Below, one piece after another: positions 29,677-37,863 of a stretch of DNA of 43,316 nt (position 1 is its first letter; every line of letters starts with the position of its first letter). The stretch covers positions 1 through 43,316 of the forward strand of contig VHBP01000018.1 in the NCBI GenBank assembly GCA_016871915.1. Direction: 5' to 3'. Made by a program: the position numbers and the translations under genes. The DNA comes from Gemmatimonadota bacterium (GTDB taxonomy: Bacteria; Gemmatimonadota; Gemmatimonadetes; Gemmatimonadales; Gemmatimonadaceae). The notes beneath the pieces are model-generated. The model searched no databases and was not told where the DNA came from. It saw nothing but the letters and a program-made list of their open reading frames with translations.

Positions 29677-32106
29677 TCAGGGCGCCGGCGGGGCGTCGGC
29701 GATCGTTGAGGCGACGTCGTCGAAGAGCGGGAGATCCTCCGCCATCGCATTCGGCCGCGCGGGGAGGAGCATCACCTCCACCACCTCGTCCATCGTCCCC
29801 GCGAAGTGCACCTGCAACGCGCTCCGCACCTCCTCCGGGAGCTCCCGCAGATCTTTCTTGTTCGCTGCGGGCAGGACCACGGTGCGGAGCCCCGCCCGAT
29901 ACGCCGCGAGGACCTTCTCCTTCACCCCGCCGATCTCGAGCACCTTCCCGCGCAGCGTGACCTCACCGGTCACGGCGACATCACGCCGCACCGGCCGACG
30001 GCTCATCACACTCGCGATCGCGAGGGTCACCGCCACGCCCGCACTCGGACCATCTTTGGGCACGGAGCCGGCTGGGAAGTGCACATGGAGATCGCTCGCG
30101 CGCATCTCGGGGTCGGCCACGCGCAGTTGGCGAGCGCGCGAGCGCACATACGAACTCGCGGCATCGACCGACTCGCGCATCACATCGCCGAGCTGCCCGG
30201 TGACGATCAGCTTCCCCGTGCCCGGCATGCGGAGCGCCTCGATCGTCATGAGCTCACCGCCGTTCGCCGTCCAGGCGAGTCCGGTCACCGTGCCGATCTC
30301 CGGCTCCTGTTCCGCCGCCTCCGGTGCCCAGCGGGGCGGACCGAGCACCTCCTCGACACGCTCGGCGTCGAGCACCCAGGCGCCGGCCTCGCCTTCGGCC
30401 TTCCGTTTCGCGCGACGTCGCATCAGCGCGGCGAGCTGCCGCTCGAAGGTGCGGAGCCCGGCCTCGCGCGCGTAGCGGTCGGCGATCAGCGAGAGCACCT
30501 CGTCGGTGAACTGCAGGTCGCGGTCGGTGATCCCGTGCGAGTCGAAGAGACGCGGGAGGAGATAGCGCCAGGCGATCTCGACCTTCTCCTCCACCGTGTA
30601 GCCGGCGATGCGGATCACCTCGAGACGATCGCGCAGCGCGTGCGGGATGTCGAAGAGGTTGTTCGCGGTGCAGATGAAGAGCGCGCTCGAGAGATCGAAC
30701 GGGAGATTGAGATAGTGGTCGGTGAAGGTCGCGTTCTGCGCGGGGTCCAGGACCTCGAGCATCGCGGCGGTTGGATCCCCACCAGCCCCGCCGCCGGCCA
30801 TCTTGTCGATCTCGTCGATCATCAGCACAGGATCGCTGACCTGCACGCGACGCATCGCCTGAATCAGGAGCCCTGGGAGCGAGCCCACATAGGTGCGCCG
30901 ATGTCCGCGGATCTCGGCCTCATCGCGCACCCCGCCGACGGAGATCCGATAGAATGCGCGCCCGAGACTCTCGGCGATCGCCTCGCCGAGCGAGGTCTTC
31001 CCCGTGCCCGGGGGGCCGACGAAGCAGAGGATCGGGGCGCCGGGATCGCGGCCACCGTCGCCGCGCAGTTGGCGAACCGCAAGATACTCGAGGATCCGGT
31101 CCTTCACCTCGCGGAGGCCGTAGTGGCGCCCGTCGAGCGCCGACTCCACGCGCTCGAGCGTGATCGCATCGGCACCGGCGCGGCGCTGCCACGGGAGTGC
31201 GAGCACCCACTCGAGGTAGTTGCGAAGCACCTGATGCTCGCTCGACGCCGACGAGAGCGCACGCAGGCGATCGAGCTCGTGGCGTGCCTCGGTCGCGACC
31301 GACTCGGGCAGCGCTGCCTCCTCGATTCGGCGCAGCAGCTCCGTGATGTCGCGATCGCCGACCTCGGCCTCACCGAGCTCCGCCTTGATCGCCTGCAGCT
31401 GTTGGCGCAGGAAGAACTCGCGGTGATGGCGATCGATCCGCCGCTCCGTCTCCTGGCGCACCTCCTGCTGCACCGTGGCGCGCGCCTCCTCGCGCTCATA
31501 GCGCTCGGCGAGGTACTCGAGTCGCCAGACGACGTCGAGTCGCTGGAGGGCTTCGTCCTTCTCGGTGGCGCGCAGGGCGCCACGAGCCGCGGCGAGATCG
31601 GCGAATCGCCCGGGACGCTTCACCTCACGGCGCAACAGTCCAGGGAGCTCGGCGGGGAAGTTCTCGTCGCGCTCGGCGCGGGCATCGGCGGCGAGGGCGA
31701 TCCGATGCATCAGGGCCTGCGCCGCCGCCTGATCGGCGAGTGGCTCCTCCACCGGGCGGAAGGTCGCGGTCGCGAAGCGCGCGCCGGCCTCGCGTCGCAC
31801 CCCGGCGATCGTCACGCGCAGCAGCCCTTCGAGGGTCACCTGATGGAGCCCGTCGATCGGGGCGCGGCGATCGGTCAGCCGCGCCACCACCCCGACGCGC
31901 CCGACCGCGCGGACCTCGCCCCCGGGTCCCTCCTCCTGCGTCAGGACACAGCAGACGAGGGCTCCCTCCTCGGGGTGCGCCGCGAGGAGCGCCTGGTTGT
32001 CGTCACTGGCGACCTGGACGGCGATCCGCCCACGCGGGAAGACCAGGGTCGACCGGAGCGCGAGGAGGGGGAGGGTGTCCTGGGGCGCGGACGGGGCGTC
32101 GGGCAC
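29677..32106 (-). CDS. lon: ATP-dependent protease Lon (LonA)
   Basis: Cytosolic AAA+ protease of 809 residues, standard for LonA. The N-terminal substrate domain (about 12-205, LPLLALRSTLVFPRGRIAVQV) is followed by a helical linker including REFFLRQQLQAIKAELGE. The AAA+ module has Walker A GPPGTGKTSLGEA near 363 and Walker B PVLMIDEIDKM. The S16 proteolytic domain has catalytic Ser in PKDGPSAGVAV (about 688) and catalytic Lys in GGVKEKVLAAYRAG (about 730). The GTG at 32106 gives the canonical N-terminus; TACATTTG lies 4 bases upstream, so the transcript may be leaderless. It is divergent from ffh and coupled downstream to the SET gene. Confidence 0.98.
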   Translation of the reverse strand: MPDAPSAPQDTLPLLALRSTLVFPRGRIAVQVASDDNQALLAAHPEEGALVCCVLTQEEGPGGEVRAVGRVGVVARLTDRRAPIDGLHQVTLEGLLRVTIAGVRREAGARFATATFRPVEEPLADQAAAQALMHRIALAADARAERDENFPAELPGLLRREVKRPGRFADLAAARGALRATEKDEALQRLDVVWRLEYLAERYEREEARATVQQEVRQETERRIDRHHREFFLRQQLQAIKAELGEAEVGDRDITELLRRIEEAALPESVATEARHELDRLRALSSASSEHQVLRNYLEWVLALPWQRRAGADAITLERVESALDGRHYGLREVKDRILEYLAVRQLRGDGGRDPGAPILCFVGPPGTGKTSLGEAIAESLGRAFYRISVGGVRDEAEIRGHRRTYVGSLPGLLIQAMRRVQVSDPVLMIDEIDKMAGGGAGGDPTAAMLEVLDPAQNATFTDHYLNLPFDLSSALFICTANNLFDIPHALRDRLEVIRIAGYTVEEKVEIAWRYLLPRLFDSHGITDRDLQFTDEVLSLIADRYAREAGLRTFERQLAALMRRRAKRKAEGEAGAWVLDAERVEEVLGPPRWAPEAAEQEPEIGTVTGLAWTANGGELMTIEALRMPGTGKLIVTGQLGDVMRESVDAASSYVRSRARQLRVADPEMRASDLHVHFPAGSVPKDGPSAGVAVTLAIASVMSRRPVRRDVAVTGEVTLRGKVLEIGGVKEKVLAAYRAGLRTVVLPAANKKDLRELPEEVRSALQVHFAGTMDEVVEVMLLPARPNAMAEDLPLFDDVASTIADAPPAP

Positions 32107-32110
32107 GGTC

Positions 32111-32118
32111 CAAATGTA
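32111..32118 (-). promoter_or_regulatory. TACATTTG element before lon
   Basis: On the minus strand TACATTTG exactly fits TAnnTTTG, the -7 element known from Bacteroidetes promoters. It ends 4 bases before the lon GTG. No convincing TTG-type -33 element was found, so the call rests on this one motif and its recurrence elsewhere in the window. Confidence 0.35.
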
Positions 32119-32190
32119 TGGCGCGCGGCCCCCCCCGTGGGTGGGGTTCGGGCGAGGGGTCCCCGCGGGGCAAGATCCGGGTCCCGTCCC

Positions 32191-32221
32191 TTGGCCCAGA
32201 CCCCCCAAGTCCCTATGTTTC
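32191..32221 (+). promoter_or_regulatory. Candidate promoter of ffh
   Basis: TTGGCC (32191-32196), a 17-base spacer and TATGTT (32214-32219) fit a housekeeping promoter; the extended -10 is TATGTTTC. Transcription would start near 32226, which rules out the ATG at 32215 and favours the ATG at 32230 for ffh. Confidence 0.45.
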
Positions 32222-32229
32222 AAGGCTCT

Positions 32230-33531
32230 ATGTTCCAAGAGCTGTCCGAGAAGCTGGAAGCCACCTTCGCCAAGTTGCGGGGGCGCGGCGTCCTGACCGA
32301 AGCCGATATCAAGGAAGGGCTCCGCGAGGTTCGCCGAGTTCTGCTTGAGGCCGACGTCAGCTTCCAACTCACGCGTGAGTTCCTCGAGCGGGTCGAGCAG
32401 CGCGCCGTCGGGGTCGCACAGGTCAAGAGCATCCAGCCGGCGCAGCAGCTGGTGAAGATCGTCTACGACGAACTCACCCTGATGCTCGGCGAGCGGAAGG
32501 AAGGGCTCCGGATGTCGACCCTCCCGCCGACCGTCGTCCTGATGGTCGGGTTACAGGGGTCAGGGAAGACGACCACTGCGGCCAAGTTGGCGCGGCGGTT
32601 GAAGGGGGAGGGACGGCCGACGCGCCTCGTGGCGGCGGACGTCTATCGCCCGGCGGCGATCGATCAGCTCGAAACCTTGGGGCGCGACCTCGAGGTCCCG
32701 GTCTACGCCGATCGCTCCACCTCCGATGTGGTCCGCATCGCGCGGGCCGGCGTGGAGGAGGCGCGGAAGGGGCGGGATCGCGTGGTCATCATCGACACCG
32801 CGGGCCGCCTGCAGATCGACGAGTCGATGATGGACGAGCTACGCCGCGTGAAGGAGGCGGTGCAGCCCGATGAGATCCTCCTCGTGGCCGACGGGATGAC
32901 GGGGCAGGATGCGGTGAAGATCGCGCAGGGGTTCAACGACGCGTTGGGCGTCACCGGCGTGGTCCTCACCAAGATGGACGGCGACGCGCGCGGTGGTGCG
33001 GCGCTCTCGATCTACGGGGTCACCAAGAAGCCGATCAAGTACATCGGCGTGGGGGAGAAGCCCGACGCGCTCGAGGAGTTCCATCCCGACCGCATGGCGG
33101 GGCGGATCCTGCAGCAGGGCGACGTCCTCACGCTGGTGGAGAAGGCGCAGGCCACGTTCGATGCCGACGAGGCCAAGCGACTCGAGAAGAAGGTGCGCAA
33201 GGAGGGGATGGACCTGCAGGACTTCCTCGGCGCGATGAAGCAGATGCAGAAGCTGGGGTCGATGCAGAACATCCTGCGGATGATCCCGGGTGTGAACAGC
33301 AAGATGGTGCAGCAGGCGAGTCAGGCTGACCCGCGGCGGATCAAGCACGCCGAGGCGATCGTCCTCTCGATGACGATGGCGGAGCGGCGGGACCCCTCGC
33401 TGCTCAACGGCTCGCGCCGTGCGCGGGTCGCGAAGGGCGCGGGGCGGCCGGTGAGCGAGGTGAATCGCCTGCTGGAGCAGTTCCGCGAGATGCAGAAGAT
33501 GATGAAGCGGATGGCTGGCGCCCGGCGCTAG
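32230..33531 (+). CDS. ffh: Signal recognition particle protein Ffh
   Basis: GTPase subunit of SRP that binds signal sequences and 4.5S RNA; 433 residues. The N domain begins [18 protein letters not shown]. The G domain has [18 protein letters not shown] (G1), [24 protein letters not shown] and [14 protein letters not shown]. The M domain is methionine-rich ([19 protein letters not shown], ending [10 protein letters not shown]). I chose the ATG at 32230 because it gives the normal N-terminus and because the promoter -10 overlaps the earlier ATG at 32215; AAGG precedes it. It heads the conserved ffh-rpsP-rimM-trmD-rplS-rnhB cluster. The 4.5S RNA gene is not in the window. Confidence 0.98.
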
Positions 33532-35666: not shown

Positions 35667-36290
35667 ATGGCCGGCGGGTGGAGCGCGCTCGAGCGTTCGC
35701 TCCGCACCGCGGGTGCCTCGCACATCGCAGGCGTGGATGAAGTCGGACGGGGCCCCTTGGCGGGCCCCGTCGTCGTTTGTGCGGTGATCATGCCCGCCGA
35801 TCGGCGCGCGATCGCCGGCGTGACCGATTCCAAGCAGCTCAAGGCCGCGGAGCGCGAGCGGTTGGCGGCGCAGATCCACGCGGAGGCGGTGGCGGTGGTG
35901 CTCGCCGCGGCCTCGGTGGCGGAGATCGCCCGCTGGAACATCTATCAGGCCACGGCCCGGGCGATGGCCCGGGCGATCGCACGGCTCGCGGTGCGCCCGG
36001 ATGAGGTACTCGTCGACGGGAAGCCGATCAAGACGTTGGGGGTCCCGCATCACGCGGTGGTCGGCGGCGACGCGACCTGCTACACCATCGGGTGTGCGAG
36101 CATCGTGGCGAAGGTGGTGCGTGACCGGTTGATGCAGCGGTTGGCGGCGCGGCATCCGGGGTATGGGTGGGATTCCAATGCCGGCTATGGGACCCCCGCG
36201 CACATCGCGGGGCTTCGGGAGCGTGGACTCACGGCGCACCATCGGGTCGCCTTCTGCCGGACGGCGCTCGGCGGACAGCTCGAGCTCTAG
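35667..36290 (+). CDS. rnhB: Ribonuclease HII
   Basis: Removes ribonucleotides from DNA and degrades RNA in RNA-DNA hybrids; 207 residues. Catalytic acidic residues are visible in AGVDEVGRGPLAGPVV (Asp-Glu pair), DSKQLKAAERERLAAQI and VDGKPIKTLG, with SIVAKVVRDRLMQRLAARHPGYGWDSNAGYGT as the C-terminal signature. It follows rplS as in many genomes and ends the translation-linked cluster. A heptad-repeat inverted array lies just downstream. Confidence 0.97.
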   Translation: MAGGWSALERSLRTAGASHIAGVDEVGRGPLAGPVVVCAVIMPADRRAIAGVTDSKQLKAAERERLAAQIHAEAVAVVLAAASVAEIARWNIYQATARAMARAIARLAVRPDEVLVDGKPIKTLGVPHHAVVGGDATCYTIGCASIVAKVVRDRLMQRLAARHPGYGWDSNAGYGTPAHIAGLRERGLTAHHRVAFCRTALGGQLEL

Positions 36291-36303
36291 GCTAATTTCA
36301 GGG

Positions 36304-36366
36304 GGTAGGTGACAGGTGCCAGGGGTCAGGTACCTGCACCCTGGTCCCTAGTCCCTGATCCCTGCC
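36304..36366. repeat. 63-bp inverted array of heptanucleotides
   Basis: Nine contiguous 7-base units fill the rnhB-permease spacer. Left half: GGTAGGT, GACAGGT, GCCAGGG, GTCAGGT. Right half: ACCTGCA, CCCTGGT, CCCTAGT, CCCTGAT, CCCTGCC. The left units are reverse complements of the MCCTGNN type of the right half, so the array is a long imperfect palindrome centred on GGTACC (36330-36335 region). It can fold into a hairpin and might serve as a terminator or protein-binding element. Confidence 0.8.
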
Positions 36367-36369
36367 TCC

Positions 36370-37863
36370 ATGCACTCTGATCTCGCGTTGGCGAGCACGA
36401 CTGACCCCATCTCGCAGGCCCTCGTCGGCGGGCTCCTCGTCGCGATGTTCGTCGCCTTGGCGCTCGAGAAGGCGCATCGCGTCCTCGTGGTGATGGGGGC
36501 GGTCGCCCTGATGTGGGGGATCAGCTACGCCACGCCCTATCGGTTGTTGACCTTCGAGGCCACCGCCCAGGCGCTCGACGTGAATGTGCTCCTCCTCCTC
36601 GCCGCCATGATGGCGTTGGTCGGTGTGCTCAAGGAGACAGGGGTCTTCGGGTGGGCGGTGGAGCGGATCCTCGAGCGGTTCGGGGGGCGGCCCGCGCGGG
36701 CGATGGTCCTCCTCTGGTGGTTCACCGGGATCGCCTCCGCCTTCCTCGATAACGTGACGACGGTGGTCTTCGTGACGCCGGTCGTCCTCGCCGCGTCGCG
36801 GCGCGTGGGTGCGCCGTCACTGCTCGTGATCCTCCCGGTGATCATGGCGGCGAACATCGGTGGGACGGCGACGTTGATCGGCGATCCGCCGAACATCATG
36901 ATCGGGTCGGGGGCAGGGCTCACCTTCCTGCAGTTCCTCGAGGAGCTCACCATCCCCGTGCTCATCATGATGTGCGGGTTGCATTGGTGGGGGGCACGCC
37001 GGCTGCGTGCCGCGATGGGTAGGCAGGCAGATCTTCCCGCGGCGGCAGATGAGCCGGGGTATGGCCCGCGCATCACCGACCCGCTCCTCCTGAAGTGGCT
37101 CGGCGGGATCAGCGCCTTCGTGCTCGTCGGGTTCGTCACGCACGGGATCACGCACATGCCGGCGGCGGTCCCTGCGGTGATCGGCGCGACGGCGGCGCTT
37201 CTGGTGCAGGATGTGCTCTATCTGCGGACCGCGCATCCCACGCACGAGGAGCGGCGCCACGGGATCCTCCACATCATCGAGCGCGAGATCGAGTGGCCCA
37301 CGCTCGTCTTCTTCGCCTTCCTCTTCATCCTCGTCGGTGCCGCGGTGGCCACGGGGTTGATCGACACCCTCGCCTCGCTCCTGCAGCAGGGGATCATGGC
37401 GGGGCGCGATGCCTTCGGCCTGGGTGAGGCGGGGACGTTGATCTTTGCCGCGCTCCTCGTGGCCTGGGTCGCCGCGCTCCTCTCTGCGGTGATGGACAAC
37501 ATCCCCTTCGTCGCGGTGAGCATCCCGATCATCAAGGCGCTCACGTTGGAGCTCCCGGGCGACGCGACGGTCCTCTGGTGGGCGCTCTCCCTCGGCGCCT
37601 GTCTCGGCGGGAATGGCACCCCGATCGGCGCGTCGGCGAATGTCACCACCCTTGGGATGGCGGAGAAGCAGGGAATCCGTGTCACCTTCGGTGAATTCAC
37701 CACCGTCGGCGCGCGCGTGGGAGTCTTCACGCTGCTCGTGTCGAGCGCCTTCCTCGTCGGGTTCGTCCTGTTGGGCGCCGATCGGGTGGCGGAGGTGGGG
37801 GCGGTGGTGCTCGCGCTCGTCGCGGCGGCGTTGTGGCGCTACGAGTCGCGCGCGAATGGGTGA
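36370..37863 (+). CDS. SLC13/ArsB/NhaD-type (ion transporter superfamily) permease
   Basis: Inner-membrane secondary transporter of 497 residues with about twelve hydrophobic segments arranged as two repeats. Features are VTPVVLAASRRVGAPSLLVILPVIMAANIGGTATLIGDPPNIMIGSGAGL in the first half and ALSLGACLGGNGTPIGASANVTTLGMAEKQG in the second, the two substrate-loop motifs of the superfamily. The close match of GGTATLIGDPPNIM favours the NhaD/ArsB branch over dicarboxylate carriers, so Na+/H+ antiport or metalloid or anion export are all possible. It starts 4 bases after the heptad array and appears monocistronic. The substrate cannot be assigned from sequence. Confidence 0.88.
   Translation: MHSDLALASTTDPISQALVGGLLVAMFVALALEKAHRVLVVMGAVALMWGISYATPYRLLTFEATAQALDVNVLLLLAAMMALVGVLKETGVFGWAVERILERFGGRPARAMVLLWWFTGIASAFLDNVTTVVFVTPVVLAASRRVGAPSLLVILPVIMAANIGGTATLIGDPPNIMIGSGAGLTFLQFLEELTIPVLIMMCGLHWWGARRLRAAMGRQADLPAAADEPGYGPRITDPLLLKWLGGISAFVLVGFVTHGITHMPAAVPAVIGATAALLVQDVLYLRTAHPTHEERRHGILHIIEREIEWPTLVFFAFLFILVGAAVATGLIDTLASLLQQGIMAGRDAFGLGEAGTLIFAALLVAWVAALLSAVMDNIPFVAVSIPIIKALTLELPGDATVLWWALSLGACLGGNGTPIGASANVTTLGMAEKQGIRVTFGEFTTVGARVGVFTLLVSSAFLVGFVLLGADRVAEVGAVVLALVAAALWRYESRANG

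Follow-up and report, generated by a model that had tools for sequence, protein, structure and literature searches.

The spacer between rnhB and a permease gene in a Gemmatimonadota bacterium carries an inverted array of ten heptanucleotide units, which is probably one copy of a dispersed intergenic heptameric SSR (STRR-like) family that turns over by slippage or exchange of whole units and whose function is putative. Among bacterial repeats, heptad arrays are an old class that is still largely unexplained. Those described here are dispersed over the genome, gain, lose and replace whole units between species, keep a core while their linkers change neutrally, have arms that vary independently, and are present or absent at some orthologous sites. 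The window, that is, the whole stretch of 43,316 nucleotides analyzed, is contig 18 of a 2.07 Mb genome that is 98.75% complete.

The Array between rnhB and the Permease Gene

The spacer measures 79 bp from the rnhB stop codon (36288-36290) to the permease ATG at 36370, and the array (36299-36364) covers 66 bp of it with five CAGGNNN units followed by five NNNCCTG units (Table 1). Two of the ten cores, TAGG and CCTA, are imperfect. The phasing is 7 bases inside either arm and 6 bases where the arms meet, between the final CAGG and the CCTG that comes next. An earlier note on this DNA had counted nine units in exact 7-base phase; the phasing holds within the arms, and the count becomes ten because the first unit had been skipped. 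That such an array exceeds chance is borne out by a four-unit pattern with at most two mismatches, which gives five matches in the window, all of them at this array, when dinucleotide shuffles expect 0.04. The part of the array adjoining the permease ATG, read directly, contains no Shine-Dalgarno-like stretch, and no sigma-70-like promoter was found at the array. A comparison of the array with Rfam returned no match above the gathering score, just weak miRNA hits far under the cut-off.

Table 1. Coordinates of the array, its flanking genes and related repeats (window positions unless a contig is named)
Feature	Position	Strand	Remarks
rnhB (ribonuclease HII)	35667..36290	+	final gene in rimM-trmD-rplS-rnhB; stop codon lies 8 bp ahead of array
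Left arm	36299..36330	+	five units; cores CAGG (36299), TAGG (36306), CAGG (36313), CAGG (36320), CAGG (36327); linkers GGG, TGA, TGC, GGT
Centre TA between arms	36331..36332	none	perfect local palindrome CAGG-TA-CCTG = AGGTACCT
Right arm	36333..36364	-	five units; cores, read on the + strand, CCTG (36333), CCTG (36340), CCTA (36347), CCTG (36354), CCTG (36361); linkers CAC, GTC, GTC, ATC
CitMHS/ArsB-type permease	36370..37863	+	ATG 5 bp past array end
Second-word loci	L221 19088-19195; L222 6502-6556, 8595-8677; L184 8894-8925		
CAGG palindromes of ~110 bp	L338 4450-4560; L288 5134-5245		also in G301 and G307

A Family of Arrays across the Genome

Three exact CAGGNNN units in a row occur 83 times genome-wide against once in a reversed control, and four units with at most two mismatches occur 170 times against 4, these counts depending on the pattern definitions used in pattern searches and sampled stretches. 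The search yielded 57 clusters and about 55 array loci, most of which lie in spacers. The cluster at window 32547 matches within the ffh P-loop by chance, and 15 of the 57 overlap predicted genes; some of those inside predicted genes may be chance matches or gene-prediction errors. Genes were called with a home-made coding-score predictor, so the gene contexts carry some error. Forty clusters are single-armed, 14 run CAGG-then-CCTG, one has the reverse order, and two have other layouts. Orientation relative to the neighboring genes follows no clear rule, apart from the filling of short spacers.

The word is CAGGKRH, a CAGG core and then a 3-bp linker that is free yet biased, its first base being G or T in 96% and its second base G or A in 88% of cases. 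It matches none of the published words compared (CCCCAGT-type, GGGGAYT, GGGAATC and TAACTGA). In this genome, linkers at a distance of two units agree in 29% of cases versus 9% expected (p < 0.0005), with no such likeness at lags of 1 or 3, which makes 14 bp a frequent step. The same CAGG family is abundant in four close relatives in the genus (G001, G004, G009 and G013), and most other members of the genus have none. The STRR-type reading proposed in the earlier note therefore stands, given a nonchance array and its many loci, and the heptad-run count that it suggested finds the array neither unique in the genome nor missing from close relatives.

Both this genome and G001 also have another heptad word, RRGCTGR (AGCTTCT-AGCCTCC), which likewise occurs in inverted pairs (Table 1). 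At L104 581-612, an array runs right up to a start codon; the gene encodes an enolase-like product with the N terminus MSTILAVQAREILDS, and this array is retained in G004 and G013.

Evolution at Orthologous Sites

In G004, the spacer between rnhB and the permease gene holds an inverted array of different make-up, and the same spacer has no array in G013, the closest by RnhB (96%), or in four others. Across 38 site-by-species pairs, at least two exact consecutive units were found in 32 of the 38 other-species spacers, and the unbiased contigs yielded fewer of them than the biased set. At some sites the array is cleanly absent, among them site 28 and site 50, which lies between two tRNA genes and is empty in G013. 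The earlier note had proposed to compare copy number between strains; among relatives, unit number varies at one and the same site. At several orthologous sites, array lengths differ by 7, 14 or 21 bp, and some differences are not multiples of 7.

Cores ascertained in G000 diverge by 5.8% in G013 and 4.6% in G004, whereas linkers diverge by 24% and 44% and fourfold sites by 25.5% and 39%, respectively. Since one side of each comparison was selected for exact cores, a fair neutral expectation is roughly half the fourfold value (12.8% and 19.7%), and the core rates still fall significantly below it (p = 3e-5 and 6e-6; p = 0.03 in the unbiased contigs alone). Ungapped pairs give a core divergence of 7.4% versus 32% for linkers (p = 3e-6). 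The linkers thus evolve at the synonymous (fourfold) rate, and the core is conserved, with a divergence of about 6%. In the ungapped pairs, linker triplets with zero, one, two and three changes number 13, 5, 6 and 3 versus 8.5, 12, 5.7 and 0.9 expected, a clustering by whole triplet that is expected if units are swapped or shifted. A kept core, neutral linkers, whole-unit swaps and uncorrelated arms together give this repeat class a concrete molecular-evolution signature.

This signature bears on the likeliest of the alternative explanations, which we regard as possible and on balance unlikely, namely, that the arrays are functional multisite targets in which a protein or RNA reads the core every 7 bp and the word co-evolves with its reader. 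Core substitution at about half or less of the ascertainment-corrected neutral rate beside neutral linkers is what such a target would show, and the frequent retention of sites between species, the species-specific words and the arm polarity fixed in a genome point the same way. However, whole-triplet replacement suggests unit turnover, which would keep the core without selection; the reader is still hypothetical, and several words coexist in one genome. Moreover, the arrays share no gene context, and at some orthologous sites the array is simply absent. Core conservation could equally reflect binding-site selection, and the data fit both accounts. Slippage and a sequence-specific reader can be told apart by test in any array-bearing species.

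Inverted Layout, Polarity and the Hairpin Question

The inverted arrangement, which looked new in the earlier note, has precedent. Convergent inverted pairs of heptad arrays have been published for Xanthomonas (70 in Xcc and 75 in Xac, PMC4692102), and the layout is widespread among bacterial phyla. A genome collection gave at least 118 stretches with inverted CAGG arrays, which include Gemmatimonadota, Planctomycetota, Acidobacteria, Bacteroidota, Chloroflexi and Desulfobacterota, with Pseudomonas, Alcanivorax, Flavobacterium, Nostoc and others as further hosts. Among the matches listed, 33 of 120 inverted CAGG arrays overlap a predicted gene versus 98 of 120 random positions.

Two arms facing each other invite the reading that the array is a bidirectional terminator or 3'-end hairpin serving both strands between rnhB and the permease gene, and the array does have a folding energy of -42.7 kcal/mol (z -2.5). 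For Xanthomonas, quadruplex-capable heptad repeats have been described as more frequent sites of transcript starts or stops than control repeats (PMC4692102). We nevertheless consider this reading very unlikely. No U-tract terminator was found at the array, in keeping with the earlier note's remark that it matches no standard terminator. The linkers of the two arms are no more complementary than those of randomly paired arms of the same genome (0.402 vs 0.444 for random pairs), nor are they in other species (55 loci, 0.601 vs 0.624), and when the cores are held fixed and the linkers permuted, comparable stability is reached in 25% of trials; the extra hairpin stability stems from the cores. 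Nor do inverted arrays favor the spacers of convergent genes (0 of 14 vs a background of 16 of 135), and most arrays in the genome are single-armed. Since arm linkers are not complementary beyond chance within genomes, the RNA hairpin that the earlier note had proposed to look for in transcript data is unsupported by the arms, and hairpin selection was rejected, and the signature described above argues against it as well. An apparent arm-complementarity signal in a set spanning several phyla disappeared once the shuffling of arms was confined to each species.

In this genome, paired arms have the order CAGG-then-CCTG over its reverse by about 14:1. Among 395 Gemmatimonadota genomes, CAGG-then-CCTG is the order in 27 and the reverse in 5; G188 has the reverse polarity exclusively, at 69 places. 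Polarity thus appears nearly fixed within a genome. A universal purine-to-pyrimidine polarity seemed to hold in the genus and was discarded in view of G188 and of control hits with the GTCC/GGAC word in G321 and G385. Together with G103, these three genomes are rich in inverted heptad arrays of opposite polarity or other word.

Telomere-like end addition, in which G-rich heptads are added to broken ends that are then joined with their arms facing, would account for convergent polarity, independent arms and variable centres. It would also suit site 22 (L096 376-456 vs L412), where the array occupies the position of other sequence in a relative. We judge it highly improbable, as array-bearing genomes contain no RVT_1 reverse transcriptase, variable linkers are ill-suited to a fixed template, G188 shows its opposite polarity throughout, and arrays are mostly one-armed and conserved in place. 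As an observation in its own right, the inverted array at site 22 coincides in position with about 400 bp of different, probably coding, sequence in G013, and it is possibly a deletion scar. REP/RAYT was likewise set aside, there being no Y1_Tnp gene in any of the 17 genus genomes; the absence of Y1_Tnp and RVT_1 from array-bearing genomes removes both RAYT and ordinary reverse transcriptases as drivers. A G-quadruplex element has next to no likelihood as an explanation of the whole family: the right arm at the rnhB-permease site fits G3N4 x4 on the minus strand, but the motif (four G-tracts of at least three) fits just 7 of 74 arrays in the genome.

Relation to Known Heptad Repeats

The closest described case is the Xanthomonas GGGAATC family (PMC4692102), whose intergenic arrays of 7-bp units likewise have conserved and variable positions, number hundreds per genome, lie mostly at the same sites in a sister species with other lengths, and often touch stop codons. 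Unlike the Xanthomonas GGGANTN repeats, the arrays here have the word CAGGNNN, mostly lack a quadruplex motif and belong to another phylum. The cyanobacterial STRR, Nostoc GGGGA(C/T)T and Calothrix heptanucleotides (PMC4692102) are also tandem heptads dispersed in the spacers of one genome, but their words are other ones and Nostoc has few inverted pairs (PMC4692102). The TAACTGA repeats of Beggiatoaceae, Cyanobacteria and Bacteroidetes (PMC4679880) form spacer arrays scattered over phyla and often lie just upstream of start codons; in contrast to CAGGNNN, their word is nearly invariant, they are direct bar one inverted case, and their orientation is fixed to the downstream gene, a rule not seen here (PMC4679880). 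REP/BIME with RAYT shares the dispersed intergenic inverted repeats, yet a REP unit of 20-40 nt is missing here, as is the transposase gene noted above. The CAGG family is accordingly a new word of a known kind of heptad array rather than a repeat that has already been published. Less known are the phylum breadth, the arm polarity and the pattern of conserved core and neutral linkers; in the literature searched, neither that measurement nor the phylum breadth has appeared in print.

Turnover of the Arrays

Of the explanations considered, we favor a slippage-prone intergenic repeat family. The inferred mechanism is slippage in steps of 7 bp, often 14 bp, or exchange from one array to another, or both. 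Replication slippage at this step would let arrays grow, shrink and be refreshed, exchange between arrays possibly adding to the refreshing, and such turnover, perhaps with weak selection on the core, would keep the CAGG register while the linkers drift. The inverted form would then be two arrays of fixed polarity meeting in one spacer and not a hairpin with co-evolving sides. Insertion would be tolerated because the array lies between genes, and any influence on the expression of rnhB or the permease gene is provisionally taken as a side effect. As cited in PMC4679880, Mrazek 2007 ranks heptads first in abundance among long SSR classes for most genomes and suggests polymerase slippage, tied to a 7-nt DNA polymerase contact.

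Tandem repeats in unbiased stretches of five genomes (240 kb here and 840 kb in the other four) show the same period: spacers contain 39 segments at period 7 (plus 14 and 21) versus 2 and 5 at lags 6 and 8, all other periods being much rarer, and genic repeats have periods that are multiples of 3. Pure slippage alone does not account for the arm polarity, for the occurrence of at least two unrelated words in one genome, or for some species of the genus that are array-free in the stretch sampled. A broader and quite doubtful proposal is that spacer-bound heptad arrays with about four fixed and three free positions, genome-fixed polarity and independent arms form one class in many phyla, which a postulated dedicated machinery would make or maintain, dictating word, polarity and the step of 7 bp.

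Words also change within the genus. In G005 and G015 (L171-L178, L191-L208), GGACGGA/GGACGAA heptads take the place of the CAGG family, and such a difference between species of one genus is a natural experiment on what sets the word. G015 has further arrays of GGTGAAY, GAGTTGT and GGATGAA. In Gemmatimonas relatives, we found near-identical dispersed palindromes of CAGG heptads, about 110 bp long with ends CTCCCTAG...CTAGGGAG (Table 1), which look like small mobile or MITE-like elements. Elsewhere in the window, an open frame of 1241 aa (29806-33531) contains Ffh (SRP54) at residues 813-1233, preceded by about 800 aa without a Pfam match, which suggests a gene fusion or a mis-called start.
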